Positions 3,849 to 30,214 of a stretch of 32,533 nucleotides of DNA are shown piece by piece. A program made the translations under genes and the position numbers. Origin of the DNA: a virus; IMG/VR virus record IMGVR_UViG_3300032737_000070, positions 1-32,533 of that record; one strand, given 5' to 3'. Below the pieces are notes generated by a model. The model worked only from the letters and a program-made list of their open reading frames with translations. It was not told the DNA's origin and did no database searches. Position 1 is the stretch's first letter; every line of letters starts with the position of its first letter.

Positions 3849-6800
3849 TAATTATATATCCTATTTTCTCCAACCTCTCGTTTCAAAGCACTTACACGAA
3901 CACCATCCGATACTGATTTAATTTTATATTCAAGAGTTTTTCCATCAAGCTCCAGCACAAGATTAAGATTGAGCGGCCCTGAACCTCCACTATCTCCATG
4001 CCCACCACCACTCACAGGAGTTATCCTTTCAGTTCCGTGTAATATTACAGGGTAACCACTCATTGGCCCTGATGCTACGCCGCCATGTTGGAAGCCTGGA
4101 ATATCACCACCTTCACTACTATATTTATAAAGTATATCAACTACCTTTGAGGATGGAGACCAGCTATCAACGGTATCTGCAAGAGTGATAAAAGTATTCG
4201 AGGCTATGTCAATAGAATCGGTCATTGAATCTGTCACTTCTTCCAATGTTATACCAAAACCTTGTGCCATATCGGAAAGTCCAGATGAAGCACTATCACT
4301 AAAATCCGCTACACTATCATCAAGACTGGTAATTACATCTACTCCGCTGGATTCTAAATCTTCAAAACCTGTAGTCATCTCCGCAAGTGCATTAGTAAGA
4401 CTATCAGAAGAAGAATCTGCCATAGTTGTAAAACTATCAGAGACAGTATCCGTCATCTCCTCTGCGGCGGCAATACCAGTTTCAACTAAGCTATTGATAG
4501 CATCCTCTGCGGCTGTAGTTGCAGATTCAAAATAGCCTGTGCCATTTTCATAAAGTTCTGCAAGCTCAGGATAAAGCGATCCTAAATATTCTTGGATCGT
4601 GCTTAGTGAGTTATCAGCATATTCGTTAATAACCGAAAGAGACGTCTCATAGTCCCCTCTATATTTTTCAAGGAACGAGCTGGATAGTGCCGTTGCACCT
4701 TCATAATATTCAGTTATTGTGCCAAGTGCGCTTTGTGCCCATGCCTGCTCTGCCTCAGTCAGCATGTTATAACTATTGACTTGAGACTCATAAAAAGCCT
4801 GTGCCGTCGCAGTGCCTTCAGTAGTTAGCGACTCATAATCACTTAGCGCAGTTAATACCCAGGCTTGCTCTACTTCTGTGAGTGCCCTGTAGCTTTCCTC
4901 CGCCGAATCGAAAAAAGTTTGAGACATAGTTGTGCGGGAATTTGTCGAATCAGTCCAAACTTCAAGCATTGCAGTTACATAATCCTGTTCAGAGGTGGAC
5001 AAATCCTGCATCTTGCTTTTCATGTTATCGATATATCTTTCTGCAGAGGCAACCGCCGCATCATAATACTCGTCCATATCCATTGTTGCAGATGGACCTT
5101 CAGTTATAGTCTTCAAGTCGTTTGTTGTTTTCAGAGCAGCTGCTGAAATTTCATCAAGATTTCCTACATCCCACTCAAGTGTCAACTTTAATATATTGGC
5201 TTCACTAACTGCCGTCTCTGTCCCCCAAAGTGCTTCTTGAATTAGTTCTCCTGCTTCTAATGACGTGGCAACTCTCCCAAACTCATCTACATGATATCCA
5301 AAGTCTTTCATTGCCTCGCCAAGATTCTCATATCGAGCCGTTACTGCTTCGACAGATTCACCATGTATCTTAGCTAACTCTTCATACTCTCCAGCAGACG
5401 CCTTTAATGAAACCGCCTGGGCCAAAAAGTAACCAGCGGAAGCGTCGCCTACTAATTCAAACATACTTGTCTGCGATTCGCTAAAAGTAGCCGCTGCCTG
5501 TTCCGAGGATTCAAGGGTGGCGTAATAATCGTCAAATTGCTGTTTCATATCTTCCAACATACTCCGTCTCTTCCTCATGTCCTCTATATTGATGAGGGCC
5601 GATATAGCCATAGCCGCAAATCCGGCCACGGCTCCAGCAGCTCCCGCCCCTGCTCCAGTAGTAGCACCTTGTTGTGCTGCTTGAGCTCCACCGACAGCCC
5701 ACATCTCTCCAGTAGCCTGACCAAGTTGAATTCCTGAAGCTAATTGTGATGCCGACGAAACTGCTCCACCTGCTGCATAGCCAGATTGAATTGCTGTACC
5801 ATAAGAGAAAGAACCTAACATCGACTGATACTCTGCTGGAGTTAAGTTTCCAAGATTCTGCAAAGCTCCGATAGATTGAGTTCCGTATCCCCCTACTTGA
5901 TAAGCTCCAGCGTATCCACCTATCGCCGACTGATAAGCAGCGGGGCCACCCGCAATCCCTTGCAAGCTGCCTATTGTGGCAGTTCCGGTTGTGGCACCTG
6001 TTCCTAATAAGCCAGAAAAATAACTCGTTATACCAGTTTTATCTCCAATATAACTGGCGATTTTACCAAGGATTGTGGTTGCAATACTGTCTCCTCCGCC
6101 TCCACCGCTATCAGTAAGGCCAACAAGGTCTCCAAGCCAGCCAAGTATCTTTGTCTTAGCCCATTCAACAAGTATCTTAGCTACCCAATCAGCAAACGAA
6201 CTTAACATGTCGTCAAGTATAGCATCCCAGAAGTCGCTTAGGCTGGAAATCTCGCCGGTAATAAAATCAGAGATGTTAGACCTAAAGCTATTTCCTATTT
6301 CTTTGAACATATCATTGGCCGATACAGCCATGTAGTTGCCCCAGGAGATCCAATCGTTTTGATCCTCTAATCGGTAACCTTTGAGGACGTCGAAAAAGTT
6401 TTCAGAGTTTTTAAGCATCTTAATATAAGATTTTTCATTCGCATCTGCTAACCAGCCATCTATTCCTTTCACTAAATCGGCATATTCTTGTGTATCTACA
6501 TATTTCTCATCAAGAAACTTCTTATATTCTTTTGCCTTCTTATCATTTAGAGCGAGTTCGTATGCATAGCTTTCCTTTGTCATGCGTTTCATATCATTAT
6601 ATAAAGAATTTAAGGTCTCAATAACGTCAGAACTGAATTCCTTATAAGTTTTTACTTTTTTAGCATTAGCTTCTTTAGTTGTATCAATAAGACCTCGTTC
6701 CATTCTCATAAAATAGGACTCAAAATCAGCTCCTAATGCAGAAACGCTTTGCCAATAAATAACTTCTGCCTTATATCTATCATCTAAAGCTACACCATGA

Positions 6801-9841: not shown

Positions 9842-9860
9842 TAATTAGACCATCTAATTA
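9842..9860. repeat. Dyad TAATTAGA-N3-TCTAATTA at the HNH stop codon
   Basis: A perfect inverted repeat with 8-base arms and a 3-base spacer, beginning at the HNH gene's stop codon. Its core (TTAGA..TCTAA) resembles the two dyads at 31472 and 31769, although the spacer is one base longer. It could be a protein-binding operator or a short hairpin. Its role is unknown. Confidence 0.4.
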
Positions 9861-10829
9861 ACTACATTTTAAATCATGATACTTACAACCCTCCTGAGAA
9901 TGTATCCAACTATGGCAATCTTCACAAAATGTAATCACATTCCAGAGATCATTTGCTATCATTTTATTCTGTGTAACTCCATTAATATGATGAACATGAA
10001 GTGCTACATCGTTTATGTGTTTGCCACATCTTTGACATTCATAGTCATCTCTTTCGAGAGCAAGTTGTCTTAATTCAGGAACAACTTCAGTATTTCTTTT
10101 TTTACCATAACCTTCCGGCCATTTTTCTTTTCTATAAATAGAACATGAACCCTTACATCCTTGTGAACAATATAGACGTGATTCACCTGGCATTTGACCT
10201 TTAAGAGTTTTCACTCTATTTGCAACTGTAATCCTTGTTGGGTGAAAATAACGCCCACAATATGTACATTTGACAAGAAGCAATCCCTGTTCATCTGATT
10301 CAGGACATTCTTCAATAGTTAATTGGTGTGTGTATGTTTCAAATAACACTGGATTTTGTCTATATATTTTGTTATGTTTTATAATAGTATCTCTATATTT
10401 CTTGTAGTGTTTTTCATTGAAATCACCAATGCAGTTTTCATCTCTCCATTTCTTTCTGTATTTAAGTGCCTGTTCTCTGTTTTTCCAATAGTATGCTATT
10501 GCACGTTCTTTGATTATGTCCTTATGTTTATTATATTTAGTTGCTCCATATTTACGATACTTGTCAGGGTTCGACTTTCTATCAAGTTTTATTCGTGCAT
10601 TAACCTTAACTTTATTTTTATTGTAATAAGATAATCCACATTTCTTTGCATATTCTGGATTGAGCTTATAGTTATCTCTTCTTATCTTATTAAAACATTC
10701 TCTACATTTGCCTCTAAAATTTCCATTGTCACTACGGACAGTAAAATATTCTATTGTCTTTGGTAGCCATTCCCCACAAACAGAACAGGTTTTATATTCT
10801 TCATTAAATTTCAAGTTGGTTTTAGACAT
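9858..10829 (-). CDS. HNH homing endonuclease with N-terminal zinc finger and lysine-rich repeats
   Basis: A 323-residue basic protein. Residues 14-46 form a CxxC...CxxC zinc-binding module (CSVCGEWLPK, CRECFNK). Residues about 50-160 are a run of short Lys/Tyr/Asn repeats (YYNKNK, YNKHKD, YYWKNREQALKYRKKW, HYKKYRD, HNKIYRQNP) typical of DNA-contacting arrays in phage HNH proteins. A second CTYCG...C cluster follows. The C-terminal HNH domain reads CQRCG, HVHHING, NVITFCEDCHSWIH. There is no RuvC-like segment. Upstream lies a 247-nt structured segment and downstream a terminator, so the set may be one mobile cassette inserted between the glycan genes and the tail tube gene. The ATG is preceded only by a weak AAGAG site, suggesting low expression. 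Confidence 0.88.
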   Translation of the reverse strand: MSKTNLKFNEEYKTCSVCGEWLPKTIEYFTVRSDNGNFRGKCRECFNKIRRDNYKLNPEYAKKCGLSYYNKNKVKVNARIKLDRKSNPDKYRKYGATKYNKHKDIIKERAIAYYWKNREQALKYRKKWRDENCIGDFNEKHYKKYRDTIIKHNKIYRQNPVLFETYTHQLTIEECPESDEQGLLLVKCTYCGRYFHPTRITVANRVKTLKGQMPGESRLYCSQGCKGSCSIYRKEKWPEGYGKKRNTEVVPELRQLALERDDYECQRCGKHINDVALHVHHINGVTQNKMIANDLWNVITFCEDCHSWIHSQEGCKYHDLKCS

Positions 10830-11621: not shown

Positions 11622-11756
11622 TTAATGTAATAAAATATAAGGTTCTTTTAACACCCCGTCATCTTCAAAAGCATGAATATTATTATCAGTAAATATCACA
11701 TTTACTTGATCTTCTAATGTATGATTGATAATCCATAATTTTTGTTTCTCTGCCAT
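11622..11756 (-). CDS. Short protein of unknown function
   Basis: A 44-residue frame starting MAEKQKLWIINHTLEDQVNV and ending EPYILLH. Its ATG overlaps the TAA of the large glycosyltransferase gene upstream (TAATG), which favours translation by re-initiation. It has no signal or membrane segment and is not recognised. The next gene starts four bases after its stop. It is supported mainly by tight packing and the in-line start. Confidence 0.5.
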   Translation of the reverse strand: MAEKQKLWIINHTLEDQVNVIFTDNNIHAFEDDGVLKEPYILLH

Positions 11757-12979
11757 TATGCTTCCCTATACTGGAAGTTATTGAGTTTCTTATATAATTC
11801 ATAAGTTGATCTATTGACTTCATAGGTAGTTAGGTGTCCTATTTCAATGCTTGTATCTACATAAATATCAATATCATTATCCCTAAGTTTAGCACAAAGA
11901 CCAATATCCTCACCAATAGTTTTACCTTCTTCATTGATAGTTGTTTGAAACCACGGCATCTGAATATCAAAGAATATACTTGTATTGAGCATCAAGCATC
12001 CACAACCAGTCGCATCTATCTTTACAAGATCCCCTGAATAGCATTCCTTATCTGGCACATGAGTATAAGCCCCTGGCTTACCACGATAAAGAATTGGATC
12101 AAAAGGTGGCCATCGTCTATGAACTGGTGTACCTATAACATCCTTATCGTGGCTTAATAGTTTTTCAATGCAATCCTGTGGATATATCTGGTCTGTGTCC
12201 ATAAGAATTAAATGAGTACAATCTTCCTCTAATGCCTGAGTTACAAGGTTGTTTCTAATCGCATCAATATGACCTGGGAACTTAGGCAATAGTAACGTAT
12301 AGTCTGGCTTACTCATAATCACAAAAGACGTGAAGAATTGTGTATAAATTTTCTCGTCAGTGAGAGGTAATCCTATCGCTATCTTTCTACGGCCCATTTC
12401 GACCTTACGTTTAAAGAATAATTTCATGTCATGTCGTTTGTTTTCATCTGAATAAATATGATCATAGTCTTTATCAGAAATTCCATTAATAACAGGATTA
12501 TCATGTTCAATTTTCGCATCTTTAGCCCATACATATCTGCCCAATTCAATACAACGTTCTGTTAATTCATTATCGCAACGGAGATGTTTGTATCCTGTAT
12601 GAAAGAATTCACCATCCAGATAAGGCAATAATTTCTTACTTGCCATCCAGTGAGTAGCTAATTTGTTGCCATCATGATGATTGTCGTTTAATCCAACTAA
12701 TCCAACTTTATCAGGAAATGTTGTTATAGCAGCTAAAGCATTTTTTAAGAAATCCTTTTGTGGAATGGTATCGTCTCCAAGGAACATCACAAGTTCGTGT
12801 TTCGCTTTTTCAACTAATCGTTTCACCATAACAGGACAACCAACTTTTTCATGGTCAATTTCAGTTATAATTTCATATTGGCTTTCTGATACACCTGCAT
12901 TTTTCTTTATAGCTTCAATGCACCGTTTAGCCTTAATAGGTCTTATAACTGGAATTATGATTGAGACTTTATTATCCAT
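11756..12979 (-). CDS. Two-domain GT-A (GT2-like) glycosyltransferase
   Basis: A 407-residue protein with two GT-A nucleotide-sugar domains in tandem. The first starts KVSIIIPVIRP (residues 4-14), has the acidic metal motif MFLGDDTIP (65-73), and continues to about residue 190. The second starts around 198 (KIAIGLPLTDEKIYTQFF), has LILMDTDQIYP (about 259-269) as its DxD motif, and ends with GEDIGLCAKLRDNDIDIYVD, the usual acceptor-side ED motif of GT2 proteins. It is cytoplasmic with no membrane helix. It probably adds two sugars or makes a disaccharide; the acceptor is unknown. The gene overlaps the upstream methyltransferase gene by 8 bases, placing it in the same cassette. Confidence 0.85.
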   Translation of the reverse strand: MDNKVSIIIPVIRPIKAKRCIEAIKKNAGVSESQYEIITEIDHEKVGCPVMVKRLVEKAKHELVMFLGDDTIPQKDFLKNALAAITTFPDKVGLVGLNDNHHDGNKLATHWMASKKLLPYLDGEFFHTGYKHLRCDNELTERCIELGRYVWAKDAKIEHDNPVINGISDKDYDHIYSDENKRHDMKLFFKRKVEMGRRKIAIGLPLTDEKIYTQFFTSFVIMSKPDYTLLLPKFPGHIDAIRNNLVTQALEEDCTHLILMDTDQIYPQDCIEKLLSHDKDVIGTPVHRRWPPFDPILYRGKPGAYTHVPDKECYSGDLVKIDATGCGCLMLNTSIFFDIQMPWFQTTINEEGKTIGEDIGLCAKLRDNDIDIYVDTSIEIGHLTTYEVNRSTYELYKKLNNFQYREA

Positions 12980-13526
12980 TCTTTACAGCCTTACACCAAA
13001 TATCGCTCTTTGTTTTGCCTTCAACAATTTCACCTTCATCTAATTCACCAGAAGCAAGTCGTCTATCTAATTGGGGAGTTCTTGCAGTAACTTCTCTACA
13101 TTCTAATATTGTAAAGGCCGCCTCAGTGAGATATCTTTTTAGAATATCAAGAGTAAAAAGGTTGTGATGATAATATTCAGGCCCTCTTGTTACAGACCCT
13201 AAGATTCCAACCAATATATCAGGATTTGAATACCTTTGTTCATCTGTAGCATCAAGCCATTTCTGAATCCAAAAAAGCGCATTTGGGCATCGTATAGTTA
13301 GAGTGCCACCAGGCTTTAGAATATGATACCACTTCAGCAATGCTTCCTTGAATTCTTGTGGCAATAAATGTTCAACAGTATGACTTGTATAAATTTCATC
13401 AACATTATTGTAGCCTGATAAAGATACAATATCAGCTTTTACATCAGCATGGTCATTATACTTATCTATATTAATCCAATTAGGCAACTTCTTAATGCCA
13501 CATCCAAGATGTAATTTAATGCTCAT
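12972..13526 (-). CDS. Class I SAM-dependent methyltransferase (Methyltransf_11-like)
   Basis: A 184-residue methyltransferase of the small-molecule/sugar type. SAM motif I is KLHLGCGIKKLPNWINID (residues 4-21), the acidic end of strand 2 is NIDKYN, the catalytic-side motif is SHTVEHL (about 48-54), and strand 5 is HILKPGGTLTIRCPN (about 68-82). It ends after TKSDIWCKAVKNG. This short form, with D/N at the end of strand 2 and a VEHL motif, is frequent in polysaccharide and phage glycan clusters, where it O-methylates sugars or reads SAM for related reactions. It overlaps its neighbours (ATGA with the glycosyltransferase upstream). The substrate cannot be read from the sequence. Confidence 0.85.
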   Translation of the reverse strand: MSIKLHLGCGIKKLPNWINIDKYNDHADVKADIVSLSGYNNVDEIYTSHTVEHLLPQEFKEALLKWYHILKPGGTLTIRCPNALFWIQKWLDATDEQRYSNPDILVGILGSVTRGPEYYHHNLFTLDILKRYLTEAAFTILECREVTARTPQLDRRLASGELDEGEIVEGKTKSDIWCKAVKNG

Positions 13527-15655
13527 ATTTCAATACCTTTCTGTAAAGTTAAAATCATAGCTTTCTGTCCTGGCGTGACAGTAAGATATTCCCCAGGTTT
13601 ATGACCTCTCCATTCAGATGTTAATTTTATATTTCCCCCTGTGGAAGTTGCCTTGTACCCAGGACTACTAATCGGGAAAATTGCTTTATAATCAGGCCCA
13701 CTGAATAATTTACCTTCATTTTTGATTCTGTAAGCATGGTAAACATATAAGCCCTTTATGACATATCTTTTGTATCCAGCCTTATCAATTTTATAAGAAT
13801 AATCATTATCAACCCCATAAAAACCATCTATAACGCCTCCAACATCTTTCCATGCTCTCTTATGGGTTAGTATAAATAACCCACTGAACGGTGGTGCTGA
13901 TGGAGGGATTTCTTCTAATGTAATATCGAATTCGTTCCATGCTTGTTCTGCAAACCTAAAATGTTCTTGAATATCATCTGTATCATTAGGGATAGAATAA
14001 CTTTGCATAGGATTTCCTATCCTATTAGTAACACAAGTTATAAAACCAGCATCATGACCAACCTCCCTTATTGCTTGTTGGCAAATTTCATACCATTGAG
14101 AGTTACACCTAACAAGAACATCATGATCTAATAATAATGCCCAATCTTCTACTGTTTCCATTGCCCTATTATATGCTTTACCAAGATGTGGCCCAGGCTC
14201 ATAAGGTATCCTTACATCAATAAAAGGATCAGATTGACTTATAATTTCCTTATCCACAGCTTTGATTTGATGTGCATTTAACACATGTATTTTAGTCCAA
14301 TCACTTGATTCAATTTCGCTTATAGGATAATCTTTAAACACTACAGGAAAACTAAGTTGATCTCTTCTGCTAAATTTATATACATGCTTCCACCATGTTT
14401 CGCTTAAAACAATTAGTTGTTCGTCTTTATGCGCCCTTGCTATTATTCCAGTAGCGTATAAACCAGCATTTTCAGGATATTCTTCATCACGATATGTATT
14501 AAGTTGTCTCTCAATTATATCAGGATCGTCTTTAGGTATTTTTTGACACATCTTGCCCTCAGCATAAATACAATCCCTTGCATAATGTTTCATTAATGCA
14601 ATAGTTTTATCATTCAGTGAGGCTTTAACGTCTGGTATAATCTTAATAGTCATATTTCCATCAACCCATAGACTGTAATCGTATTCATCTAAAAATCTAT
14701 GAGGACAGATTTTTACTAATCTTGCTGATCTAACTGGATCGCCATAAACCAAAGGCTTCATTAATCTGATTTGCCAAATATTAGATGATAATTTAGGGTT
14801 ATCCGTAAAGCAGATATAATCAATATCTTCACTATATACAGTTGGATCTCTCAATTCATCATACTTACCAAATATAGCAGTATAAATAACGGTATTATTC
14901 TTTTTGCTATCTATAAAAAATTCATTAACTTCTTTGCCCTTCATTTCCCAACAAGTTCTTGTCTTAAACCTATTATCTATTGGGTCAACAATACTTCCAA
15001 AATCAAGACAATGAACATCAGCATCTAAGTTCCATAACCGCTTTGCAATTACACGAGATGCCTGTCCTGTACAGGCCAGTACTACCTTAATGTTTTTATA
15101 GTTCTGCTCTATCTCAGGCCACCATTCATCTATTGTACCATAAGAGTTTGTTGAAGGTGTTTCTATATATATGTCTATTTTGCCAAAAAACTTTTCCATG
15201 TTCTCATGGCTACAACAACCGATGAACATTTTGGGCTGGTCTTCAATGTACTTTGTGATGAAATGCCTCAATATCATCGGTTTGAACACGCCTAAATAAT
15301 GGAAAAGAACGGGACTAAAAAACGTCCCTGTATCTGTCCGCTGCTCTAATATTTTGTTCAAATCGTCTTTATTGGAAAAGGAAGCGAATAAACCATCTAC
15401 CATCCCAGGCTCGGTTTCATATATACCACTAACGCCCCTCATATATAGCGGGTCGTCTATCCGCAGGCCTTCACGTAACTCCAGCATAAGTTTGGGCGTA
15501 CTGACTATTCTATCTTTCCCAAGAGGCCTCTTATACTCAATATCTTCAGTTAAAAGAATATCCACATCACCAAAACGTACATAGTATGCTTTAGGAGATG
15601 AATCTAAAACAGATTCTAATTGTGATAATGATTCAGATGTAGTTAATATTTTCAT
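13523..15655 (-). CDS. Three-domain glycosyltransferase (GT-D-like, DUF616-like, GT2-like) with C-terminal VTPGQK module
   Basis: A 710-residue fusion. Residues 1-250 look like a GT-D fold (SP_1767-like) enzyme, with YYVRFGDVDI near 24-33 and a later LACTGQASRVIAKRLW...LDFGS part (193-221). Residues about 253-450 match DUF616/TOD1-like glycosyltransferases: VIYTAIFGKYDELRDP, ICFTDNP, DYSLWVDGNM (326-335). Residues about 451-670 are GT2-like, with LGKAYNRAME and the DxD-type LLLDHDVLV (507-515). Residues 675-710 form a short module (IKLTSEWRG...VTPGQKAMILTLQKGIEI) shared with the small protein at 17169-17513. Three transferase domains in one chain suggest that it builds a short glycan stepwise. 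No membrane segments are visible. Domain assignments rest on motifs and spacing. Confidence 0.75.
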   Translation of the reverse strand: MKILTTSESLSQLESVLDSSPKAYYVRFGDVDILLTEDIEYKRPLGKDRIVSTPKLMLELREGLRIDDPLYMRGVSGIYETEPGMVDGLFASFSNKDDLNKILEQRTDTGTFFSPVLFHYLGVFKPMILRHFITKYIEDQPKMFIGCCSHENMEKFFGKIDIYIETPSTNSYGTIDEWWPEIEQNYKNIKVVLACTGQASRVIAKRLWNLDADVHCLDFGSIVDPIDNRFKTRTCWEMKGKEVNEFFIDSKKNNTVIYTAIFGKYDELRDPTVYSEDIDYICFTDNPKLSSNIWQIRLMKPLVYGDPVRSARLVKICPHRFLDEYDYSLWVDGNMTIKIIPDVKASLNDKTIALMKHYARDCIYAEGKMCQKIPKDDPDIIERQLNTYRDEEYPENAGLYATGIIARAHKDEQLIVLSETWWKHVYKFSRRDQLSFPVVFKDYPISEIESSDWTKIHVLNAHQIKAVDKEIISQSDPFIDVRIPYEPGPHLGKAYNRAMETVEDWALLLDHDVLVRCNSQWYEICQQAIREVGHDAGFITCVTNRIGNPMQSYSIPNDTDDIQEHFRFAEQAWNEFDITLEEIPPSAPPFSGLFILTHKRAWKDVGGVIDGFYGVDNDYSYKIDKAGYKRYVIKGLYVYHAYRIKNEGKLFSGPDYKAIFPISSPGYKATSTGGNIKLTSEWRGHKPGEYLTVTPGQKAMILTLQKGIEI

Positions 15656-16164
15656 ATTATATCTTTTATGAATAAGAAGTCTCCTGTCAGAGAAGCATAA
15701 TAATCGAATTTTTCTTCCAATCCATCTGGCAATTTTCCCATGTGTCCCTGTATTCGTTCAGGAGTATTATTGCGATAGGCGAGAAGTCCATCAGGCCTTC
15801 TGTCATTATTACTCTCAATATCTGCTACCCAATAACCTCTTTCTAATAGGGCATCATAAGTCCCATTAGATATTCTATAACCAGGTGCTTTAAAGCCTTT
15901 CGTTAACTCATAAGGTTCAATTTTATCTAAATATTCAAGAGCTTCTTGCTTTGTCCAAAACTCACACTCTGGCCCATCGTGATTCCAGCCATGAGGAATC
16001 ATATCAATCCAAGATATCTGTTTTATTTTGGCTATCCATTCTAATGAACACTTTCCAAGGATAGTAAACAGGTTGACCTTCAGTTGTGGTATTCTTATTT
16101 TCAGTTCAAACAATAAATCATACCTGGGGCAATCTTCATAAAAATCATCAAAGCTCAGGATCAT
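15652..16164 (-). CDS. Polysaccharide deacetylase-like (NodB homology) enzyme
   Basis: A 170-residue protein with the metal and catalytic motifs of the NodB/CE4 fold, which removes acetyl or formyl groups from amino sugars. Motif 1 is ILSFDDF (D6, D7), motif 2 is MIPHGWNHD (H58 and H62 bind the metal), motif 3 is KAPGYRIS, and a late IQGHMGKLPDG supplies the last histidine. It is shorter than typical 200-residue family members and carries no signal peptide, so it would act in the cytosol on a sugar precursor, similar to ArnD- or WbmS-like forms. It overlaps both neighbours by four bases (ATGA). The adjacent acetyltransferase gene suggests the two exchange N-acyl groups on one sugar. Confidence 0.75.
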   Translation of the reverse strand: MILSFDDFYEDCPRYDLLFELKIRIPQLKVNLFTILGKCSLEWIAKIKQISWIDMIPHGWNHDGPECEFWTKQEALEYLDKIEPYELTKGFKAPGYRISNGTYDALLERGYWVADIESNNDRRPDGLLAYRNNTPERIQGHMGKLPDGLEEKFDYYASLTGDFLFIKDII

Positions 16165-16598
16165 TTCACTTTCACTCCCCTCGTGAAACCCAATGAATCA
16201 TAGAACGGCCATAAAAATTGTTTTGATGTAATTGCTATCACGGTATTTACACCCCTCGCCTTCATCATAATAAAACTTTTCAGCATCAGATATTTATAAA
16301 AGCCTTTTCCCCTATGCTCTTCTTCACAGAAAGCTACATGAGGTTCACCTATGCCTATCTCGATTGTAAAGAAAGAAGTAGCAACAACTTCACCCTTATA
16401 AGTAATGAAAAGTACATGAGAATCTTTTTTCACGTCCCACTTTCGCCCTAATAAGGTTTCCCATTGGGATCTATATTCTATCGGAACATCTGCTTCATCG
16501 AAGGATATGAATTTGTATCCCTCTGGAATAATGGAAGGCATTATGTCTAAGTCATCCATATCAATCCCTAAATGGTTCCAATATTTATTTGACTGCAT
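16161..16598 (-). CDS. GNAT N-acetyltransferase
   Basis: A GNAT-fold acyltransferase. The acetyl-CoA loop is CEEEHRGKGFYKYLMLKSF, preceded by a beta-bulge strand HVLFITYKGEVVATSFFTIE and followed by GVNTVIAITSKQFLWPFYDSLGF, the normal motif B. I choose ATG 16598 (145 residues, MQSNKYWNHLG), with AGGTGA five bases before it, over an upstream ATG at 16637 buried in the methyltransferase gene. It overlaps the upstream methyltransferase gene by 14 bases and the deacetylase gene by 4. In sugar clusters such enzymes N-acetylate amino sugars; here the substrate is unknown. Confidence 0.8.
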   Translation of the reverse strand: MQSNKYWNHLGIDMDDLDIMPSIIPEGYKFISFDEADVPIEYRSQWETLLGRKWDVKKDSHVLFITYKGEVVATSFFTIEIGIGEPHVAFCEEEHRGKGFYKYLMLKSFIMMKARGVNTVIAITSKQFLWPFYDSLGFTRGVKVK

Positions 16599-17037
16599 AT
16601 AATTCACCTTTAGTATGGACAACTTTGTTTTGCTCATAAGAATTGTTTACAACGTCCTGTAAATGACCTGTGAACTTAGCCTTAATTCCATAAAGATTTC
16701 TATGTGCATCATCCATATAATAAAGCCAACTATTTTGATTCCAGAATGATACGTGCGTAGGATCTTGAAAAGCGCCCCTACCCTCTGTTGAAGGAACAAA
16801 TACAGACAGCCTACCTTCTGGTTTTAAAACTCTATATATTTCCTCAATCGCCTCAACTGTTTTACCTAAATGAATATGCTCTAAAACGTCAAATGCCATA
16901 ACAACATCAAGACAGTTATCTTTAAAAGGCAACCCTTCCTCAATATTACATACTATATCAGGATTAACCTCTGGTCTAATGTCAAGATTAATATGGTCAG
17001 GTTGTGGCCTAAAACCACTACCTAAATTTAATTTCAT
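16585..17037 (-). CDS. Class I SAM-dependent methyltransferase
   Basis: A 150-residue methyltransferase, shorter than usual. The SAM loop is KLNLGSGFRPQPDHINLDIR (2-21), the acidic motif of strand 4 is MAFDVLEHIHLGKT (about 47-60), and strand 5 is VLKPEGRLSVFVPS (about 70-83). A conserved DPTHVSFWN motif (about 92-100) follows; this is frequent in glycan-cluster methyltransferases. It is the paralogue-like partner of the gene at 12972-13526, but the two differ enough to act on different sites. The ATG overlaps the stop of the upstream 41-residue gene. Confidence 0.83.
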   Translation of the reverse strand: MKLNLGSGFRPQPDHINLDIRPEVNPDIVCNIEEGLPFKDNCLDVVMAFDVLEHIHLGKTVEAIEEIYRVLKPEGRLSVFVPSTEGRGAFQDPTHVSFWNQNSWLYYMDDAHRNLYGIKAKFTGHLQDVVNNSYEQNKVVHTKGELYAVK

Positions 17038-17159
17038 TTTGTCGAACCACCAATAGCCACTATCCTCTCTTCAAGTGCAAGTATAAGGCTTTCAATCCAG
17101 AAGTCCTTATCCTTTTTAAATTTCTCTAATTTGTTTCGGAACCAATCTTCTGTTTTCAT
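17034..17159 (-). CDS. Very small protein of unknown function
   Basis: A 41-residue frame from ATG 17159 to TGA 17034, overlapping the methyltransferase start as ATGA. It is charged and helical (DWFRNKLEKFKKDKDFWIESL, then ILALEERIVAIGGSTK). Similar charged short helices occur in small phage helper proteins. A TGGATAA stretch precedes the start, with GGTGG as a weak binding site. I cannot name it; support is packing and coupling. Confidence 0.5.
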   Translation of the reverse strand: MKTEDWFRNKLEKFKKDKDFWIESLILALEERIVAIGGSTK

Positions 17160-17168
17160 TTATCCACC

Positions 17169-17513
17169 TTATATGCTTTTCCTCTTGGTTTTTCGTGGTT
17201 TATATTTCCTTTTAGGCTTTTCAACTACAGGCTTAATCACTTCTGGCTCTTCAACAATAGGCTCAACTGATAAATTGTCATACCAGTCATTAGTTTCCTG
17301 TACTTCCGGCTTCTCTATAATAGGTTCAATCACTTCAGGTTCGTCTACAATAATAATAACTTCAACTTCAGGCTCCTTAACAACAGGTTCAGGTTCTATA
17401 TATTCGATACCCTTGCATAATGTCAGGAGCAGAGTCTTTTGACCAGGAGTTACATCAATGATTTCCCTTGCCTTATACCATCTCCAGCTTTCTGTAAGCA
17501 TTATCTTTGCCAT
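17169..17513 (-). CDS. Small virion-like protein with VTPGQK module and Pro/Glu/Val-rich tail
   Basis: A 114-residue protein, read from ATG 17513, which follows TTGGAGAAATAAAA. Residues 1-36 are the module MAKIMLTESWRWYKAREIID then VTPGQKTLLLTLCKGIE, the same unit as at the C-terminus of the 710-residue glycosyltransferase. The pattern '..W..YKA.E...VTPGQ...L...G' resembles small SH3-like domains in phage head-completion or accessory proteins. Residues about 37-95 are a repeat-like acidic stretch of EPE, EVI and VVE units with prolines. The end is strongly basic (KPKRKYKPRKTKRKS). It lies directly after the tail completion gene (stop 17516). It may be a virion protein and possibly a docking partner for the transferase, which is inference. 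Confidence 0.55.
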   Translation of the reverse strand: MAKIMLTESWRWYKAREIIDVTPGQKTLLLTLCKGIEYIEPEPVVKEPEVEVIIIVDEPEVIEPIIEKPEVQETNDWYDNLSVEPIVEEPEVIKPVVEKPKRKYKPRKTKRKSI

Positions 17514-17515
17514 TT

Positions 17516-17926
17516 TTATTTCTCCAATAATACGGTATATTCTACTGGTTGATGCCAAACACCATCCTCTGCATCCCTCATTAATGGTAATACAAAACTA
17601 CGCTCAAATTTTAAACCAGGATAACCAGTAATTGATATAATATGATCATCAAAATATGCAGATAGGTATGTATAGATCGTTAGTGCCTCAGAAGATGATG
17701 GGCTACTTGAAAAGATGGAAAATTGAAGCGTAAAGGTTTCATGTATCATATCCCCAAACCAATATTCCGGTATCTCTGACACCATGCTATAAACAATATA
17801 TGGCAGTGTAGCACCTTGTGGAGCTTCGGTTAAATAGAACCGCCCACCAACTGAAGTGTAAAGGCTGCCAGCCGGGCCCCCCGCTGCAAAGTATGTATAT
17901 ATCGCTGTGAATAATAGTTTAATCAT
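17516..17926 (-). CDS. Tail completion/terminator protein (DUF3168-like)
   Basis: A 136-residue protein at the usual place of the tail terminator, after the gp10-like gene. It begins MIKLLFTAIYTYFAAGGPAGSLYTSVGGRFYLTEAPQGATLPYIVYSMVS. The sequence '...GRFY...APQGA.LPYIVY....' with the later TFTLQFSIFS and the C-terminal DGVWHQPVEYTVLLEK matches DUF3168/gpU-like tail terminators. These cap the tail tube at the head-proximal end and join it to the neck. It overlaps the gp10-like gene by four bases. Confidence 0.85.
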   Translation of the reverse strand: MIKLLFTAIYTYFAAGGPAGSLYTSVGGRFYLTEAPQGATLPYIVYSMVSEIPEYWFGDMIHETFTLQFSIFSSSPSSSEALTIYTYLSAYFDDHIISITGYPGLKFERSFVLPLMRDAEDGVWHQPVEYTVLLEK

Positions 17927-18285
17927 CTTTCATATTTAGCAAAAGCTCGGTCATATTCTATAGGCAATTCTGGCCTATGCTTATTTGCGGCTGGTCTGAG
18001 GAATGGCCGTGCAGCCATGTGTCTTGTTTTGTTCAATCCTAATTCAACAAAAGTTGCGTAATACTTACCAGCCGATTTATCACCGTAAGCATTTACCCTA
18101 TAACCACCGACCTTACCTCCTATTTTCTTGACTTCAATACTATTCGCTAATGCACCAGTCTTTTTAGGGCAATAATTCTTTGCACTGGCAGCTATCTTTT
18201 CAGCAATTACCTTACATGCTGCATCATTTGCCCCAGTAACAGCCGCTTCCAATGGGTAATCATTCCATATTATTGTCGGTTGCAT
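17923..18285 (-). CDS. HK97 gp10-like neck/tail protein
   Basis: A 120-residue protein with the HK97 gp10 (PF04883) pattern: AEKIAASAKNYCPKKTGALANSIEVKK, G..Y.V...., YATFVELGLNKTRHMAARPFLRPAANKHRPE. The segment 'KTG.L..SI' with 'VE.G...... ARPFLRPA' is diagnostic. Proteins of this family sit at the neck or top of the tail in many siphoviruses and are encoded between the head-tail closure and tail terminator genes, exactly as here. It overlaps the upstream gene at position 18285 (stop/start overlap). Confidence 0.9.
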   Translation of the reverse strand: MQPTIIWNDYPLEAAVTGANDAACKVIAEKIAASAKNYCPKKTGALANSIEVKKIGGKVGGYRVNAYGDKSAGKYYATFVELGLNKTRHMAARPFLRPAANKHRPELPIEYDRAFAKYER

Positions 18286-18623
18286 TAAATCTCTTCCTCT
18301 GCTAAGAACTCTAACATAATTCCACGCTCATCATTGTTAATTATACTTCTGATATTGAAATACCTTGCACCAGCCGGATCATTAAACTTAATCCGCATAG
18401 CAGCCGTTATGCCAGTTCTATATCTAATGCGTATGCGGTGAGTTACGGTTAATTCGAGCTTCATGGCTTCGAGGCGTTCAGTAGCACGTAATGGCCATAT
18501 TGAAGCACGCACACCAGCGCCGTCAGTTATCGCTGCCCATACCTTTGTTACGCCACCCATGCCGTCGCTTGTATCAGTAGCTTCCTGAATATCTATCGAA
18601 TTTCTTAGACTACCCGCACGCAT
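18285..18623 (-). CDS. Head-tail adaptor/closure protein (SPP1 gp16-like)
   Basis: A 112-residue protein of the phage head-tail joining family (PF05521). The family pattern is visible: MRAGSLRNSIDIQEATDTSDGMGGVTKVWAA, then VRASIWPLRATERLEAMKLELTVTHRIRIRYRTGI, then MRIKFNDPAGARYFNIRSIINNDERG and MLEFLAEEE. These proteins form a ring under the connector and close the head until DNA ejection. The gene lies between the connector gene and the gp10-like gene, as expected. Confidence 0.92.
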   Translation of the reverse strand: MRAGSLRNSIDIQEATDTSDGMGGVTKVWAAITDGAGVRASIWPLRATERLEAMKLELTVTHRIRIRYRTGITAAMRIKFNDPAGARYFNIRSIINNDERGIMLEFLAEEEI

Positions 18624-18643
18624 CTAATCTCCCAGTGGCTGCG

Positions 18644-19447
18644 CTAAAATCCAAACAACCTGTGTGGATATAATAAATTATTAACTGTCTTTAGTGATGT
18701 CGTTACAGTCATACCGACAATATTTTCTTCTCGATTTTCATAAAGATCTGAAACTAAAATTTTAATCGCCTGCCTAATAGCTTCCGGTACGCTGATTTCA
18801 GTTGATGTCCCCAAGGTCGTATAGGCCGCATTTCCTGCTGACCCCAGGAGCTTGAACGTATCAACATCGACCTTTTCGATCACCCAGGTTCCGTTGGCGT
18901 TCGTATTGCCTCCAACATCAATGACCACAACCCTATCACCTGATACATATAAATGTCCTACAATCGTAATGACAATAGGCGTAGCGTTAGTGGCCCCTGT
19001 GATATTTTGCGGAGTATGCGCACCATATCCACAGATGAATTGAGTTTCTATTGGATTCTCTGCGGCCAATGTATCACCAGGCCAGACCTCGCCATATTTA
19101 AGAACCACTCGTCCAGGATCGCTGTCAGTATCAGAAGTCCATTCGTCGTCTTCATCAAAGGTCGTCTGGACTGTATCATCTGAATCAGTAAACTTAATAT
19201 GAGTAACTGATTGCAGTTGACCGTACGGCAATTCAAAATAGTTGCCATCAGGCCAGTTATCCATGAACAATTTCCAGGTCTGAGTTATCAGTTTACGCCT
19301 TAGAACTTCTTCAACATAAGACGTAGCCGCTATGATTAGACCTTGGATATAACCGTCATCTAATGTGACGGTAACTCTCATGTGGTCTTTTGCCTCGTCT
19401 AAGGACACGGGCAATTGTGCAGGCGCCGTTACGATTGTGGTTATCAT
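18644..19447 (-). CDS. Head-tail connector (gp6-like) with E1-FCCH-like insert
   Basis: A 267-residue gp6/YqbG-like connector. The N-terminal four-helix part is PVSLDEAKDHMRVTVTLDDGY and IQGLIIAATSYVEEVLRRKLITQTW; the C-terminal part is VPEAIRQAIKILVSDLYENREENIVG and LLYPHRLFGF. Normal gp6-like proteins are 100-200 residues long. The extra section (about residues 145-210) reads ATNATPIVITIVGHLYVSGD, then VGGNTNANGTWVIEK, then VDTFKLLGSAGNAAYT. This matches the 'ubiquitin-activating E1 FCCH' domain seen in other phage structural proteins. It is probably a surface-exposed loop domain. The connector ring sits at the portal and binds the adaptor. Confidence 0.85.
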   Translation of the reverse strand: MITTIVTAPAQLPVSLDEAKDHMRVTVTLDDGYIQGLIIAATSYVEEVLRRKLITQTWKLFMDNWPDGNYFELPYGQLQSVTHIKFTDSDDTVQTTFDEDDEWTSDTDSDPGRVVLKYGEVWPGDTLAAENPIETQFICGYGAHTPQNITGATNATPIVITIVGHLYVSGDRVVVIDVGGNTNANGTWVIEKVDVDTFKLLGSAGNAAYTTLGTSTEISVPEAIRQAIKILVSDLYENREENIVGMTVTTSLKTVNNLLYPHRLFGF

Positions 19448-24970: not shown

Positions 24971-27016
24971 CTAACTTCTGGCCTGGAGAGTGATAAAATG
25001 TGATTGCGTATGACTTGCGGTACCCTTATAAGGCGTTAAAGCTGTTTGCCTTACGGGCTGCCCATCAAGCCGCATCACAAATCTAAACACGCTCTCGTCC
25101 TCGACGAACTGGACGTGGATTGACATGTCTGCTTTTACTCCACCCTTTTCTGCTAACAGATACCCGTTAGTGAAGTCGCCAAGATAAATGTCGCCCAAAG
25201 TTCCAAGCGTCTGGCATTGTTCAATCGCCATAACGGGACGACCAAAAAGCGTTCCATAAGGTAGCGCACTCAGACCACCAGCAGGCATATAAACAGGGAT
25301 TCCACCCGTACCAACTGCAATACTCATCGTATGCAACTGAGGCTCAATGTTCTGGTTTATCATCCATACAGCGTTTGGCCTACTTGATGCAAACAGTCTA
25401 CTCCACATCTTGATCACGTTTTGTGCTACGATGGTTGCAGCCACTTGACCAGTTTCCTTACCCTGAGTTACAAGACACCCAGCATTAAGAATACCAAGAG
25501 GCTGGCCTGCGCCACTCCCATTAATTATGGCATCATCAATCATAAATCCAAACTCTGACTTAAAACCGTTTCTGATAATGCCTTCAAGTGCAGCAGCATC
25601 GTCGAGTAATTCATCAGTGGCATAGCAAAGTCCAACCAGCTTGTTAAGCTCAAGCGTGATTTGCCTGAACGTAGGTTTGCTTTTTGTTTTAGCGGCTGCT
25701 TCGTCTTTCCAATAACCCCTGATTCCACCTTGTCGTGATCCAGCGACCCTGCTTGTCTCATCAACACCATTAATCTTGATCGAGTTAGCATTGCCTGAAA
25801 TCTGAATCTTGCGACACAATGCCGCCAAACGACCTGTTGCAAATAATCAGCTAAAAGTTCTGTGGTAAAATCGGTCTGCACTAAGACAGTTATCCCAAAG
25901 CTTTCGCAGAGGGCTGGACCATATCATCAGAATCTTTACGTGAACAAAATCGACCGGTGTCTTTATCTCTCCGGCTCTCCATTTTGAGTTTAAGAAATCG
26001 ACTTTGTTCCAATTCTGCCTTGCGTATGGCCTCTGAGGCGCCTCGTTTTTGCAATGGTAAACAGGTATCAATAATTTCTAACTCTCTATCATTATAGAAA
26101 TTCTTGGTATGGCTACCGTGTATATAGTTTTTCATTCTTAATTCGCAAAATTCCAATACTAACTCCGCTCTTTTCTTTTTATTTCCAGTTAGATATTGTA
26201 AAACTGGTTTCAAAAGACGAATCATAAGAGCCATTCTATGCACAACAACTACGTAAACAATTTTCTTGCTACTTTTCTTTAGTGCAGTTTTATCAATTTT
26301 TAAATAAGGATTGATGCCTATTTTCTTTATAATAGAAACAGCTTTTAAACAAATTTCCTCATCTGTATTTGATATCTGCATTCCTACTGTTGCTCTTCGT
26401 GCTATAGAATGTTTTCGTATTCTTTCTAATTGAATCCCTATATACCCTTCACCATCGATTATACCTGCAAGCCATGCAAGTTCTTCACGAGTTGCCTGCT
26501 GATTGTCCAATCCTGTACTCTGTCCCCTAAGAAGGCGCACAGGCTCTAAAGGAGTTTCCAGCATATAGCAAGGTTTAACGTGGGCTCTTGGCATTATGCT
26601 AACCCACCGTCACTAGGAATCGACTCACCCATACCAGTCGCTCTTGCCTGATACAGTCTCGGATCAACACGCCTTTCAGGTAGCCCAGCGTTCATAACGG
26701 CTATAAGTTGTTCACCGAAAGAACCAAAGCTGTCCCGCCGTCCCTGATCAGGCATAGTGATACTTGATCTATTTTCATTCACTTCTGGTTTGATAGGATC
26801 ATGAACTGGTTTCTCTAAATCAGTCTTTAAACTCTGCTCACGTTCCATACTGTTAACGATAACACGGACCTTTTTTACACGATCCATAATCTCATTTCTC
26901 AATCTTGTTTCCTCATCTGAGGGATCTCGGTTCTCATGAATAAGCACCGTATTCAAATCCTCAAGCTTACGCATAAGTTCCCCGATATCGCTTTGATACT
27001 CAGTTATTGTCTTCAT
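24971..27016 (-). CDS. HK97-fold major capsid protein, split by a group I intron and with a frame break
   Basis: Exon 1 (27016-26602) encodes a coiled-coil N-terminal delta region (residues about 1-110; MKTITEYQSDIGELMRKLED) ending GMGESIPSDGG. Exon 2 (25886-24971) continues FLVQTDFTTELLA and, in the next frame, LFATGRLAALCRKIQISGNA, DETSRVAGSR, GGIRGYW and NGSGAGQPLGIL, all hallmarks of HK97-type capsid proteins. Splicing at 26602/25886 gives GGFLVQTDF exactly. A missing base near GCTGATTATTTGC (25851-25839) puts the rest in another frame, so about 443 residues are made only if it is corrected. Expected protein: the shell subunit, cleaved by the U35 protease near the end of the delta region. 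The break could be a sequencing error. Confidence 0.85.
25887..26601 (-). other. Group I intron in the major capsid gene
   Basis: A 715-base intron. The 5' exon end GTGGGT pairs with intron GCCCAC (P1, with the T-G pair at the splice site). AAGA just before that guide pairs with the 3' exon start TCTT (P10). P3 is TGCTG (in ATGCTGGAAACTCC) with CAGCA, and P7 is GGAC-A-ATC with GAT-ATG-GTCC (near 25920). The intron ends in G (25887). Splicing rebuilds the capsid motif GGFLVQTDF. These elements match the core of LAGLIDADG-carrying group I introns. Confidence 0.9.
25890..26594 (-). CDS. LAGLIDADG homing endonuclease encoded inside the capsid intron
   Basis: A 234-residue frame with one LAGLIDADG-type motif, LAWLAGIIDGEGYIGI (about 39-54), then VGMQISNTDEEICLKAVSII, KKIGINPYLKIDK, VVVVHRMALMIRLLKPVLQY, NKKKRAELVLEFCELRMK. 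One motif per chain implies a homodimer. The frame is open across the intron core at both ends: residues 1-38 translate the P1-P3-P7 region and the last 12 translate the P7 3' strand to P9. The true start may therefore be an internal ATG or TTG closer to the nuclease. ATG 26594 overlaps the exon-frame stop (TAATG), allowing re-initiation on unspliced RNA. The enzyme would cut intron-free capsid genes. Confidence 0.9.
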   Translation of the reverse strand: MPRAHVKPCYMLETPLEPVRLLRGQSTGLDNQQATREELAWLAGIIDGEGYIGIQLERIRKHSIARRATVGMQISNTDEEICLKAVSIIKKIGINPYLKIDKTALKKSSKKIVYVVVVHRMALMIRLLKPVLQYLTGNKKKRAELVLEFCELRMKNYIHGSHTKNFYNDRELEIIDTCLPLQKRGASEAIRKAELEQSRFLKLKMESRRDKDTGRFCSRKDSDDMVQPSAKALG

Positions 27017-28013
27017 CTTGAAATAACCTCCATTTATTAGTTTTTGGTTTTACCTTCTCAGGTTGTTTAGGGGCAATCCTTTCAGCTTTAATTAATAGCT
27101 CGCTGGTAGGATCTACCTTTACTTCTATGTTGATATCCTCATCACGCTCCATGTCGCCTGAGTGTACGCTTCCCGGCTCCTCTTTAGGAGTGGCCACGGA
27201 CGGCTCATCATCAGAGTGGACTTCGTCCGGCTCTGTGGTTGCGTTATCAGATATTGGTGCATATCTCTTTAGTATTTCCCAATCTTCTTCATTTAGTGTT
27301 TCGCCAGACCTCAGCTTGTCTAATACATCAATCAGCCTGGGATCTATTGCCTGTTGAGCTTCCTGTCTTTCAAATAATGCCCTTACCTCTGCGGTAGTTT
27401 CAGGATAAGCAGGAAATGTTACAACACTGACATCAAATAAGTTGACTTCAAGTAACCTGCGAGTATTCTTGTTGTAGTCGTCATCAGATTTAACAACATT
27501 GAACCCAAAAGACATTTGACTGACATCTCCACGCTTCATAGAACGCATTAAATCGTTGCCCCAATTAGTTTCAGCCGGAGTTATTTCGACAGCCAAGCCT
27601 TTATTATCTTCATTGAGATTTAAAGTGCCAGCCTTGTTTCTACCAAGTACATAATTAGGATCGTGATTCCAGAGGGCCCTGATGTCTGCCTCCCCAATAG
27701 TCTTTTTAAATGCTCCTGGCTCTATAGATTCCTTGAAGTAACCAAGGTCTGTCCACTTGTTAAATACAGCGGCATAGCCTTCAATCATTGGAAATTCGTC
27801 ACTTGCAATCCTTATTTCGGCTTCCGGCATACACCGGCGTTCTATATTGTTCATTTTACTACCCCCTCTGTTCTTTGATTTATCCCAAATGCTATTACAT
27901 ACAGCATAGCGTTGTTTATTATCTGGATAGTCCTTGTTCATAATGTCTGATGATAAACACCTGTCCATAAACTTTTTCTTAGATTCACCCTTGACAACTT
28001 TAGGCAGTGGCAT
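27000..28013 (-). CDS. Prohead protease (HK97 gp4 / U35 family)
   Basis: A 337-residue protein. Residues about 58-215 are a U35 protease: IEGYAAVFNKW, YFKESIEPGAF, ALWNHDPNYVLGR (H117), MKRGDVSQMSFGF (S168), LFDVSVVTFPAYPETTAEVR. It cleaves capsid and scaffold parts during head maturation. Residues 1-48 form a separate small basic module with FMDRCLSSDIM, YPDNKQRYAVCNSIWDK, often seen in phage head genes. The C-terminal part (about 220-337) is acidic and disordered-looking. A second in-frame start, ATG 27854 (M54), has GGGGGTAGTAAA before it and would yield the protease without the extra module. The stop overlaps the capsid start (27016). Confidence 0.92.
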   Translation of the reverse strand: MPLPKVVKGESKKKFMDRCLSSDIMNKDYPDNKQRYAVCNSIWDKSKNRGGSKMNNIERRCMPEAEIRIASDEFPMIEGYAAVFNKWTDLGYFKESIEPGAFKKTIGEADIRALWNHDPNYVLGRNKAGTLNLNEDNKGLAVEITPAETNWGNDLMRSMKRGDVSQMSFGFNVVKSDDDYNKNTRRLLEVNLFDVSVVTFPAYPETTAEVRALFERQEAQQAIDPRLIDVLDKLRSGETLNEEDWEILKRYAPISDNATTEPDEVHSDDEPSVATPKEEPGSVHSGDMERDEDINIEVKVDPTSELLIKAERIAPKQPEKVKPKTNKWRLFQDEDNN

Positions 28014-28186: not shown

Positions 28187-30214
28187 CTAAGCTGCTGATA
28201 TTCCACAAATACATCCTTGATGCAGGGGTGGCGCAAAGTGTGGCCCTCTTATTTTCATGGAACCGTCTGCACCTTTAGGATTAAATAAACCTTCACCTAT
28301 AAATGGATATTCAACTCCCACTATTTTTCCATTAAGGTTTTGGCAATATGGGCACGACTTTGACCCTTGTGTTACCCACATCAATCTTGTAATACCTCCA
28401 GCTACAAATACAAACTTAGTTACAGCATTATTTGCCCTAACTGTTTCGTTTGAAGCGGTTTTTTCTGGAGATTTTTCTTGCCACTCACCAACCCTTGTAT
28501 CAATAGCGTCCCTCATTTCGTCCGGTTCAGTGTCCCTTAATATGGCCTGTAGTTGACCAAGTGATGAACTGGTATGTCTTAACGAAAATGTCTCATTATA
28601 CTGCCTAACAAACTCTGCTAATTCAGGAGTCATTTCCGGTTTAACGCCTATCTCATTATTGGCTGCTCGTTCAATATCTTCAGCATACGTCATAAGTAGA
28701 GGGAACATGTCTTTTTCAATCGTTTTGCCAAAGGTTTCGTAATAATTCTCCAGCCATTTACTGAATTGTGCTTTTGTTCGTTGCGTCAAGAGCTTATTGG
28801 CTGCTACTTTGATTGCCTTAGTTTCTTTTTCAATGAATCGTTGCGATGTAGATACAAATAGTTTATGGTAGCTTTTCTGTATGCTGTTACGTTCACGTAT
28901 TGAACGATATCCAGGTATAGAACGTTCCTCTTCTTTTATGATTTCCTCTGCTCCTTCTTCTGGTTTTGGTTCATTCCCGACGTCGGGAATAGGTGGAGGT
29001 GGAGGAGGTAGTGTTAAAACCATACTTAATGGTACCATATTCATTGGGAACCAAAGTTCATCTGCCAAAGGATTCGGGTTTGGATTTTGGTCTTCTAACG
29101 CTCTAATCTCATTTGGCGTTATAGACCCGATCATAAACCGTTGACTGTAGAATTTGCCTCTTGATTCAGAATCACCCCTTAATAGTCCTTCAACTATGTG
29201 TTTAAAGTAAAATTTATGGTTGCGTTCCTTTGGCGAAAGTAATTGCAGGTCATATCCCTGCTCAAATCTAACAAGCCAAGGGACAATGGAATCAGTAACA
29301 AACTCAATGGATTGACTTTCAATATTTGAGTAAGTCGAATGAGACATTTCTTTGATTTTATGGGGTGGTACATTGAACCAACGTGCTACTTCGTTGACTG
29401 AGAATACCCTTGACTGGAGGAATTGAGCGTCTTCTGGTGGGATACCTATATTATTTATTTTCATACCTTCTTCAAGTATGAGCAGTTTATGAGATTTTCC
29501 TAAACCAGAATATTGTTCTGTTAAGGATTTCTTTAAATTGTCGTATGCTTCTCCACCTAACTTACCTGGATGCTCTGCAACTGCCCCAGGATGCGTACCG
29601 GCTCCAAAAAACCTTGCTCCAAACTCCTCCATTGCCAGACCAAGACCAATTGTTTCCCTGGCATACGAAATAACTGAATATCCCTGGATACCGTCAAACC
29701 CCAATCCTGGAATATGTAACATTCGATCTCGTGGAAGTGATATAGTTTCAGATCCTACTTTGACTTCGTATATTAATTCACCCCTGATTCTTCTAATTAC
29801 AACCCTGTTTGGAGGGATAGGCCATAATGCTGTTACTTCTCCCATACCATTACGCTGGATCTCTGCATAACAGTTACCCCAGCCAAGCACATGAGCAGTC
29901 ATTGTTTCTCTGAATGTCATGGCAGACATTTCGGAATTAGGAGAAAAGTGGAGCAACTGATGTAAAGGTCGCCTATCTTCTACAACATTTCCCTGATTGG
30001 CTTTCTTTCGATATAAATTAAGTGGCAATCCGCCTATCGTGCCAGATAAAAGAGCGATTGCGTTAAATACCGCTGAATAACTAAGGGCTTTATCGTAAGT
30101 TACGTTCACGCCTGCGCTGGATTGTGCCCCGATTAAGTTCCAATAAGAAGTATCCCATGCCTTTTTGTCAGTTAGGCTAAGGTTGCGTTTGAAAATATTA
30201 GTCAGTAACCCCAT
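28187..30214 (-). CDS. HK97-type portal protein fused to a MuF-like head morphogenesis domain
   Basis: A 675-residue protein. Residues about 1-385 match the HK97 portal family (PF04860): YSAVFNAIALLSGTIGGLPL, MLHIPGLGFDGIQGYSVISY, EEFGARFFGAGTHPGAVAEH, NEVARWFNVPPHKIKEMSHS, PNEIRALEDQNPNP. A proline-rich linker (PPPPPPIPDVGNEPKPEEG, about 395-415) follows. Residues about 440-675 look like the SPP1 gp7/Mu gpF head-morphogenesis domain, ending with the Cys/His motif CPYCQNLNGKIVG ... HFAPPLHQGCICG. The portal ring packages DNA; the MuF part is often a small internal head protein. The upstream stop TAA touches its ATG. Confidence 0.93.
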   Translation of the reverse strand: MGLLTNIFKRNLSLTDKKAWDTSYWNLIGAQSSAGVNVTYDKALSYSAVFNAIALLSGTIGGLPLNLYRKKANQGNVVEDRRPLHQLLHFSPNSEMSAMTFRETMTAHVLGWGNCYAEIQRNGMGEVTALWPIPPNRVVIRRIRGELIYEVKVGSETISLPRDRMLHIPGLGFDGIQGYSVISYARETIGLGLAMEEFGARFFGAGTHPGAVAEHPGKLGGEAYDNLKKSLTEQYSGLGKSHKLLILEEGMKINNIGIPPEDAQFLQSRVFSVNEVARWFNVPPHKIKEMSHSTYSNIESQSIEFVTDSIVPWLVRFEQGYDLQLLSPKERNHKFYFKHIVEGLLRGDSESRGKFYSQRFMIGSITPNEIRALEDQNPNPNPLADELWFPMNMVPLSMVLTLPPPPPPIPDVGNEPKPEEGAEEIIKEEERSIPGYRSIRERNSIQKSYHKLFVSTSQRFIEKETKAIKVAANKLLTQRTKAQFSKWLENYYETFGKTIEKDMFPLLMTYAEDIERAANNEIGVKPEMTPELAEFVRQYNETFSLRHTSSSLGQLQAILRDTEPDEMRDAIDTRVGEWQEKSPEKTASNETVRANNAVTKFVFVAGGITRLMWVTQGSKSCPYCQNLNGKIVGVEYPFIGEGLFNPKGADGSMKIRGPHFAPPLHQGCICGISAA

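Follow-up and report, generated by a model that had tools for sequence, protein, structure and literature searches.

Here we report that a 32.5-kb viral contig very probably carries a mobile group I intron whose P6 loop holds the gene for a LAGLIDADG homing endonuclease and which is inserted after the first base of the phenylalanine codon in the GG-F motif of an HK97-type major capsid protein (MCP) gene. The first-pass annotation of this DNA had placed a group I intron at that motif, and its reading is well upheld: a close relative is empty at exactly this site, base changes compensate each other in P3, P5, P7 and P8, P1 and P10 pair canonically, the intron ends in G, and sister introns share the nucleotide position. 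The annotation had missed both the LAGLIDADG open reading frame (ORF) and a break in the reading frame of exon 2.

The contig, which as a whole we call the window, bears portal, prohead protease and MCP genes on its minus strand (Table 1), the last identified as HK97 type by matches to TIGR01554 (193 bits) and PF05065 (163 bits). Elsewhere in the window, glycosyltransferase-like and methyltransferase-like genes lie among the virion genes (11756-15655; PF04765, PF03452/PF00535 and PF08241, some of them below cut-off), and a 323-aa protein encoded close to the tail genes has a C-terminal HNH nuclease domain (9858-10829; PF01844).

Intron boundaries and the empty site

The originally proposed coordinates of the intron, 25887-26601 (715 nt, minus strand), are correct: a collinear relative lacks exactly that segment. 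This closest viral-contig relative (G001/L002) is about 90% identical to the window over long stretches, largely collinear with it, and 84-87% identical in the intron flanks. Window positions 25085-25886 and 26601-27867 align to the adjacent G001 segments 15038-15839 and 15840-17112, and the flanks are contiguous there, the insertion point in this alignment being ambiguous by one base owing to a shared T. Comparison with intronless capsid homologues, suggested earlier as a check, gives the same picture: GG-F is uninterrupted in 37 viral-contig loci found with the MCP as query, and G001 is a precise empty site. Joining GGT GGG T to TC TTA GTG CAG yields GGFLVQTDF, the motif that had been predicted for the junction, and the ligated exon sequence expected there is GGTGGGT followed by TCTTAGTG.

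Inteins commonly hold LAGLIDADG endonucleases, and the insert might on that account be taken for an in-frame protein element rather than an RNA intron. The reading frames rule this out, and we regard its chance as negligible: the exon-1 frame reaches a stop soon after the two glycines (GGLA, then stop), the 715 nt of the insert do not make up a whole number of codons, and the endonuclease ORF begins at a start codon of its own in another frame.

The capsid gene has been hit at two sites, because the L002 MCP, which is free of the window's intron, carries a different group I intron near its 3' end (3731-3981, and likewise in L003). This second intron is about 250 nt long, has no large ORF and scores 109.3 bits against RF00028. 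G001 also holds a 1.8-kb cargo (17112-18914), which the window lacks. It has a small upstream reading frame on one side and the start of the protease gene on the other, and it contains SGGVDSA, a motif known from ATP-pyrophosphatases and asparagine synthetases.

Table 1. Features of the capsid region of the window, in window coordinates
Feature	Position	Strand	Basis
Portal gene	28187-30214	minus	
Prohead protease gene	27000-28013	minus	
MCP exon 1 (N-terminal/delta region; ends GGT GGG T)	26602-27016	minus	Aligns to viral-contig MCPs; 82.7% aa identity to L002
P1 5' strand GUGGGU (exon 1), last U paired with G	26602-26607	minus	
Group I intron, 715 nt, terminal G at 25887	25887-26601	minus	Empty site in G001; RF00028 26.4 bits, E 1.4e-6; covariation
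LAGLIDADG homing endonuclease ORF, 234 aa	25890-26594	minus	PF14528 23.4 bits (cut-off 22.5); phrog_5046 E 6.8e-13; dN/dS 0.107 against L163
P10 guide AAGA, pairs with exon 2 UCUU (25883-25886)	26586-26589	minus	
P1 3' strand GCCCAC (internal guide)	26580-26585	minus	
P3 5' strand CCUUGC	26568-26573	minus	5/6 pairs changed on both sides in 9 introns
P4 5' strand UGCUG	26559-26563	minus	Pairs invariant in 9 introns; MFE fold
P5 and extension (UCC/GGA, CCUGUGC/GUACAGG)	26506-26553	minus	Compensatory changes in 2/3 P5 pairs; fold
P4 3' strand CAGCA	26497-26501	minus	Fold; covariation set
P6 (AGGC/GCCU and CUCGU/ACGAG), endonuclease ORF in loop	26036-26497	minus	Reproduced by fold without ORF loop
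P7 5' strand GGCCAU	26026-26031	minus	U-A to C-G double change against sister introns
P3 3' strand GCAAGG	26018-26023	minus	Covariation
P8 CAGAAU/AUUCUG, extended 12 bp by GAACAAAGUCGA/UCGAUUUUGUUC	25928-26017	minus	6/6 counted pairs (CAGAAU/AUUCUG) changed on both sides; fold
P7 3' strand AUGGUC	25917-25922	minus	Covariation
P9 hairpin CCC..GC-GAAA-GC..GGG, three pyrimidine mismatches	25894-25913	minus	Sequence; 7/8 pairs in sister intron L163
MCP exon 2 (starts TC TTA GTG CAG; one-base frame break near 25846)	24971-25886	minus	PF05065/TIGR01554 on 24971-25828; break relative to G001

Ribozyme fold and covariation

The P1 and P10 pairings first read from the sequence are confirmed; a U.G pair marks the 5' splice site, and the intron ends in G. 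Two other helices have to be corrected, because the related introns, once lined up, show the canonical fold. The TGCTG/CAGCA pairing that had been called P3 is P4, the true P3 being CCUUGC/GCAAGG, and the GGAC-A-ATC/GAT-ATG-GTCC pairing that had been called P7 is not a core helix, the true P7 being GGCCAU/AUGGUC. Folding of the intron without its ORF loop recovers P1, P4, P5, P6, P7 and P8 (z -2.37), to which the centroid structure adds part of P9. P3 is a pseudoknot and hence lies outside the nested fold; its covariation is independent of the folding program.

Conservation of the core was scored by pair counts on related introns, using 26 core pairs in nine related capsid introns, eight of them at the identical position and one (L172) 4 nt upstream. 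The pairs are formed in 97.9% of cells, whereas shuffles give 82.2% and partners displaced by one to three columns give 29-41%; the 97.9% is favoured by our having chosen the helix strands by eye on the same sequences. Double changes are the stronger evidence: they occur in 41 cells of 14 pairs, compared with 11.2 cells (sd 2.8) of 7.9 pairs in shuffles, and none of 500 shuffles reaches 41. The helices that covary across the nine introns are P3, P5, P7 and P8.

A covariance-model search, also suggested with the initial reading, bears it out in part. A default Rfam search returned no match in the window at the RF00028 gathering cut-off of 50 bits, while a permissive search matched the intron at 26.4 bits (E 1.4e-6 for this genome). 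The gathering cut-off is a curation threshold rather than a biological feature, and a low score is to be expected of a core that is split by an ORF, as here within P6; the 5' half of this match is misaligned. An over-specific pattern for the 5' core gave no matches, and a relaxed version matched at least 119 stretches of phage contigs, most of which proved on inspection to be introns of this class.

The low Rfam score, together with an ORF that covers nearly the whole insert, could be taken to mean that a free-standing LAGLIDADG gene has split the MCP gene without any ribozyme, the two halves of the protein being made separately. Such an arrangement is very improbable and was rejected on the covariation, as the compensatory changes are long-range ones in P3, P5, P7 and P8. 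It would also leave aside the P1/P10 guide, the exact junction that rebuilds GGF, and the identical architecture found at the identical position in divergent MCPs.

The endonuclease frame and the proposed mechanism

The endonuclease carries the LAGLIDADG motif LAWLAGIIDGEG and passes the Pfam cut-off for LAGLIDADG_3. Its ORF fills the P6 loop and then runs on through P7, P3, P8 and P9, so that the greater part of the ribozyme is also coding sequence; the ATG shares bases with the stop codon of the exon-1 frame (TAATG) within the P1 loop. Compared with the endonuclease of L163, 82% identical over the full length, the ORF has a dN/dS of 0.107, or 0.045 for the loop part, where dS is saturated; these ratios mark strong purifying selection. 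Where the ORF overlaps the ribozyme core, dS is only 0.23 and 0.40, as expected if the bases are constrained both as RNA and as protein. Searches with the endonuclease as a lone query gave no match in IMG/VR, GTDB contigs or the phage collection, and a DNA search gave only short, probably chance matches. Matches of the endonuclease to I-CreI and I-OnuI in the PDB are weak, and PDB matches to recA were rejected as sums of repeats of one non-significant match.

This arrangement suggests a scheme of splicing, endonuclease activity, homing and translational coupling. P1 would pair the Gly-Gly codons of exon 1 with the guide sequence, the ribozyme would cut after the U, P10 would align exon 2, and the exons would be ligated into MCP mRNA. 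We infer that the endonuclease is made from unspliced RNA, because the exon-1 frame stops at the TAA overlapping the endonuclease ATG, and that folding for splicing competes with translation of the endonuclease, because its start codon lies in the P1 loop. In a coinfection the enzyme would cleave the conserved site in the intronless MCP gene of the other phage, and repair of the break would then insert a copy of the intron.

The deposited allele, even if spliced, would not yield a full-length MCP, because exon 2 loses its frame at about 25846 when compared with G001 and other relatives, which hold intact copies. This could mark either a dead allele or an assembly error; our search found other copies of the region only in the contigs of L002 and L003. 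A dead allele would fit an intron that is group I by descent but now decaying, its P9 weak and its MCP frame broken, so that the capsid gene it sits in would no longer be a functional one. The three mismatches in P9 lend themselves to this account, as does the break itself, since other stretches of about 90% identity contain few indels that disrupt the frame of a gene, and the G001 copy is intact. We nevertheless consider decay unlikely, as P1, P3-P8, P10 and the ORF show no damage, the comparison with L163 reveals strong purifying selection on the endonuclease, and a single-base error in assembly explains the break just as simply.

A lineage tied to one capsid codon and its known counterparts

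A search with an alignment of eight such endonucleases found 80 viral loci. Those nearest to the window's enzyme (L163-L172) all adjoin MCP genes, and the window shares its exact insertion position, after GGN GGN T, with L163, L164/165, L166, L167, L168/169, L170, L171 (=L129) and L192. At least nine distinct introns with related endonucleases therefore occupy one nucleotide position, in MCPs as low as 20-25% identical. Like the window, the same-site IMG/VR introns of L163, L164, L166, L167, L168, L170 and L171 combine this position with the same core and a related LAGLIDADG ORF, 29-84% identical; all are on uncharacterised contigs, and L163 is the nearest. The endonucleases of the same-site introns fall in one supported set in our tree (99/85; 100/99 for the window with L163), in which the bootstrap had not fully converged. 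The same set also holds L187, from another capsid gene, and L250, from an archaeal contig, neither of them placed at the GG-F/Y site. With these two elsewhere and the L172 intron 4 nt from the common site, insertion specificity is, to judge from the positions, not absolute.

Relationships among the introns disagree with those among their host genes, and alleles with and without the intron both exist, as expected of a mobile intron. Several pairs have endonucleases 38-48% identical in MCPs only 21-27% identical (47% against 26% for L167 and L170). L002 lacks the intron at 90% identity in MCP exon 2; L163 has it, with exons 1 and 2 only 45% and 78% identical to those of the window. Because the two sets of identities disagree and L002 is without the intron, we conclude from these comparisons that it has moved between phages repeatedly, for the most part to this GG-F/Y site.

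A second family of major head proteins (L043, L063 and L075; MAGQLWGTNTLGG, then Y, phrog_1357) likewise has introns of the same class, at a GG-Y codon. In L140, an insert of about 1 kb and of the same class lies elsewhere in the MCP gene (about 11990-12986) and has a long reading frame rich in Cys pairs.

Based on these observations, we somewhat favour the view that LAGLIDADG group I introns include a dedicated lineage whose homing target is a single nucleotide position, in the GG-F/Y codon of HK97-type MCP genes, across phages with barely similar capsid proteins, that its class reaches the GG-Y codon of the other head family as well, and that folding of P1 would make splicing and endonuclease translation mutually exclusive. 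The breadth of this site-tied lineage may be new; we found no description of it in the literature searched, a search that most subscription papers fall outside.

No protein of the virion is more abundant than the MCP, and an intron in its gene must therefore splice efficiently or the phage pays. A set of related introns on one codon of a hallmark gene suggests that a homing endonuclease can track a conserved capsid motif from phage to phage, and introns tied to a site in this way can serve as natural markers of genes passing between distant phages. Annotation pipelines also miss MCP genes that carry such introns, since the ORF is in two pieces and the ribozyme scores below the Rfam cut-off.

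The kind of element is already known, and the window adds one member to it. Insertion in a capsid gene, described at first as less usual, is less exceptional than that wording implies, as capsid-gene group I introns have been described in LittleE, Tuc2009 and crAss-like phages. MCP genes of crAss-like phages have repeatedly received group I introns with endonuclease domains (Yutin et al. 2021, PMC7886860), and there too intron and endonuclease interrupt the MCPs of metagenomic phages, although of a different phage group. Introns of Bastillevirinae likewise give partial Rfam matches and have ORFs that overlap the core (PMC11878797), and a further report (PMC11620839) describes an intron endonuclease with a demonstrated role in competition between phages. 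The lactococcal phage Tuc2009 (AF109874) resembles the window in having a group I intron with an ORF in its major head protein gene, but at another position, after GNTLKFPAW.

RT-PCR and the N-terminal sequence of the protein have shown that the capsid intron of mycobacteriophage LittleE (JF937101) is spliced in infected cells (Pope et al. 2013, PMC3706429). This group I-like intron interrupts the gene of an HK97-fold MCP at precisely the nucleotide position that the intron occupies in the window (GGT GGT T/AC in LittleE, in a GG-Y motif), and it resembles the latter in other ways too, with a U ending exon 1, a terminal G and a LAGLIDADG endonuclease of phrog_5046. Its RF00028 score of 30.7 bits is below the cut-off, as is the 26.4 bits of the window's intron. 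The two endonucleases are 22% identical over 115 aa, and they differ in placement: that of LittleE is encoded on the opposite strand, outside the core, whereas that of the window lies in P6.
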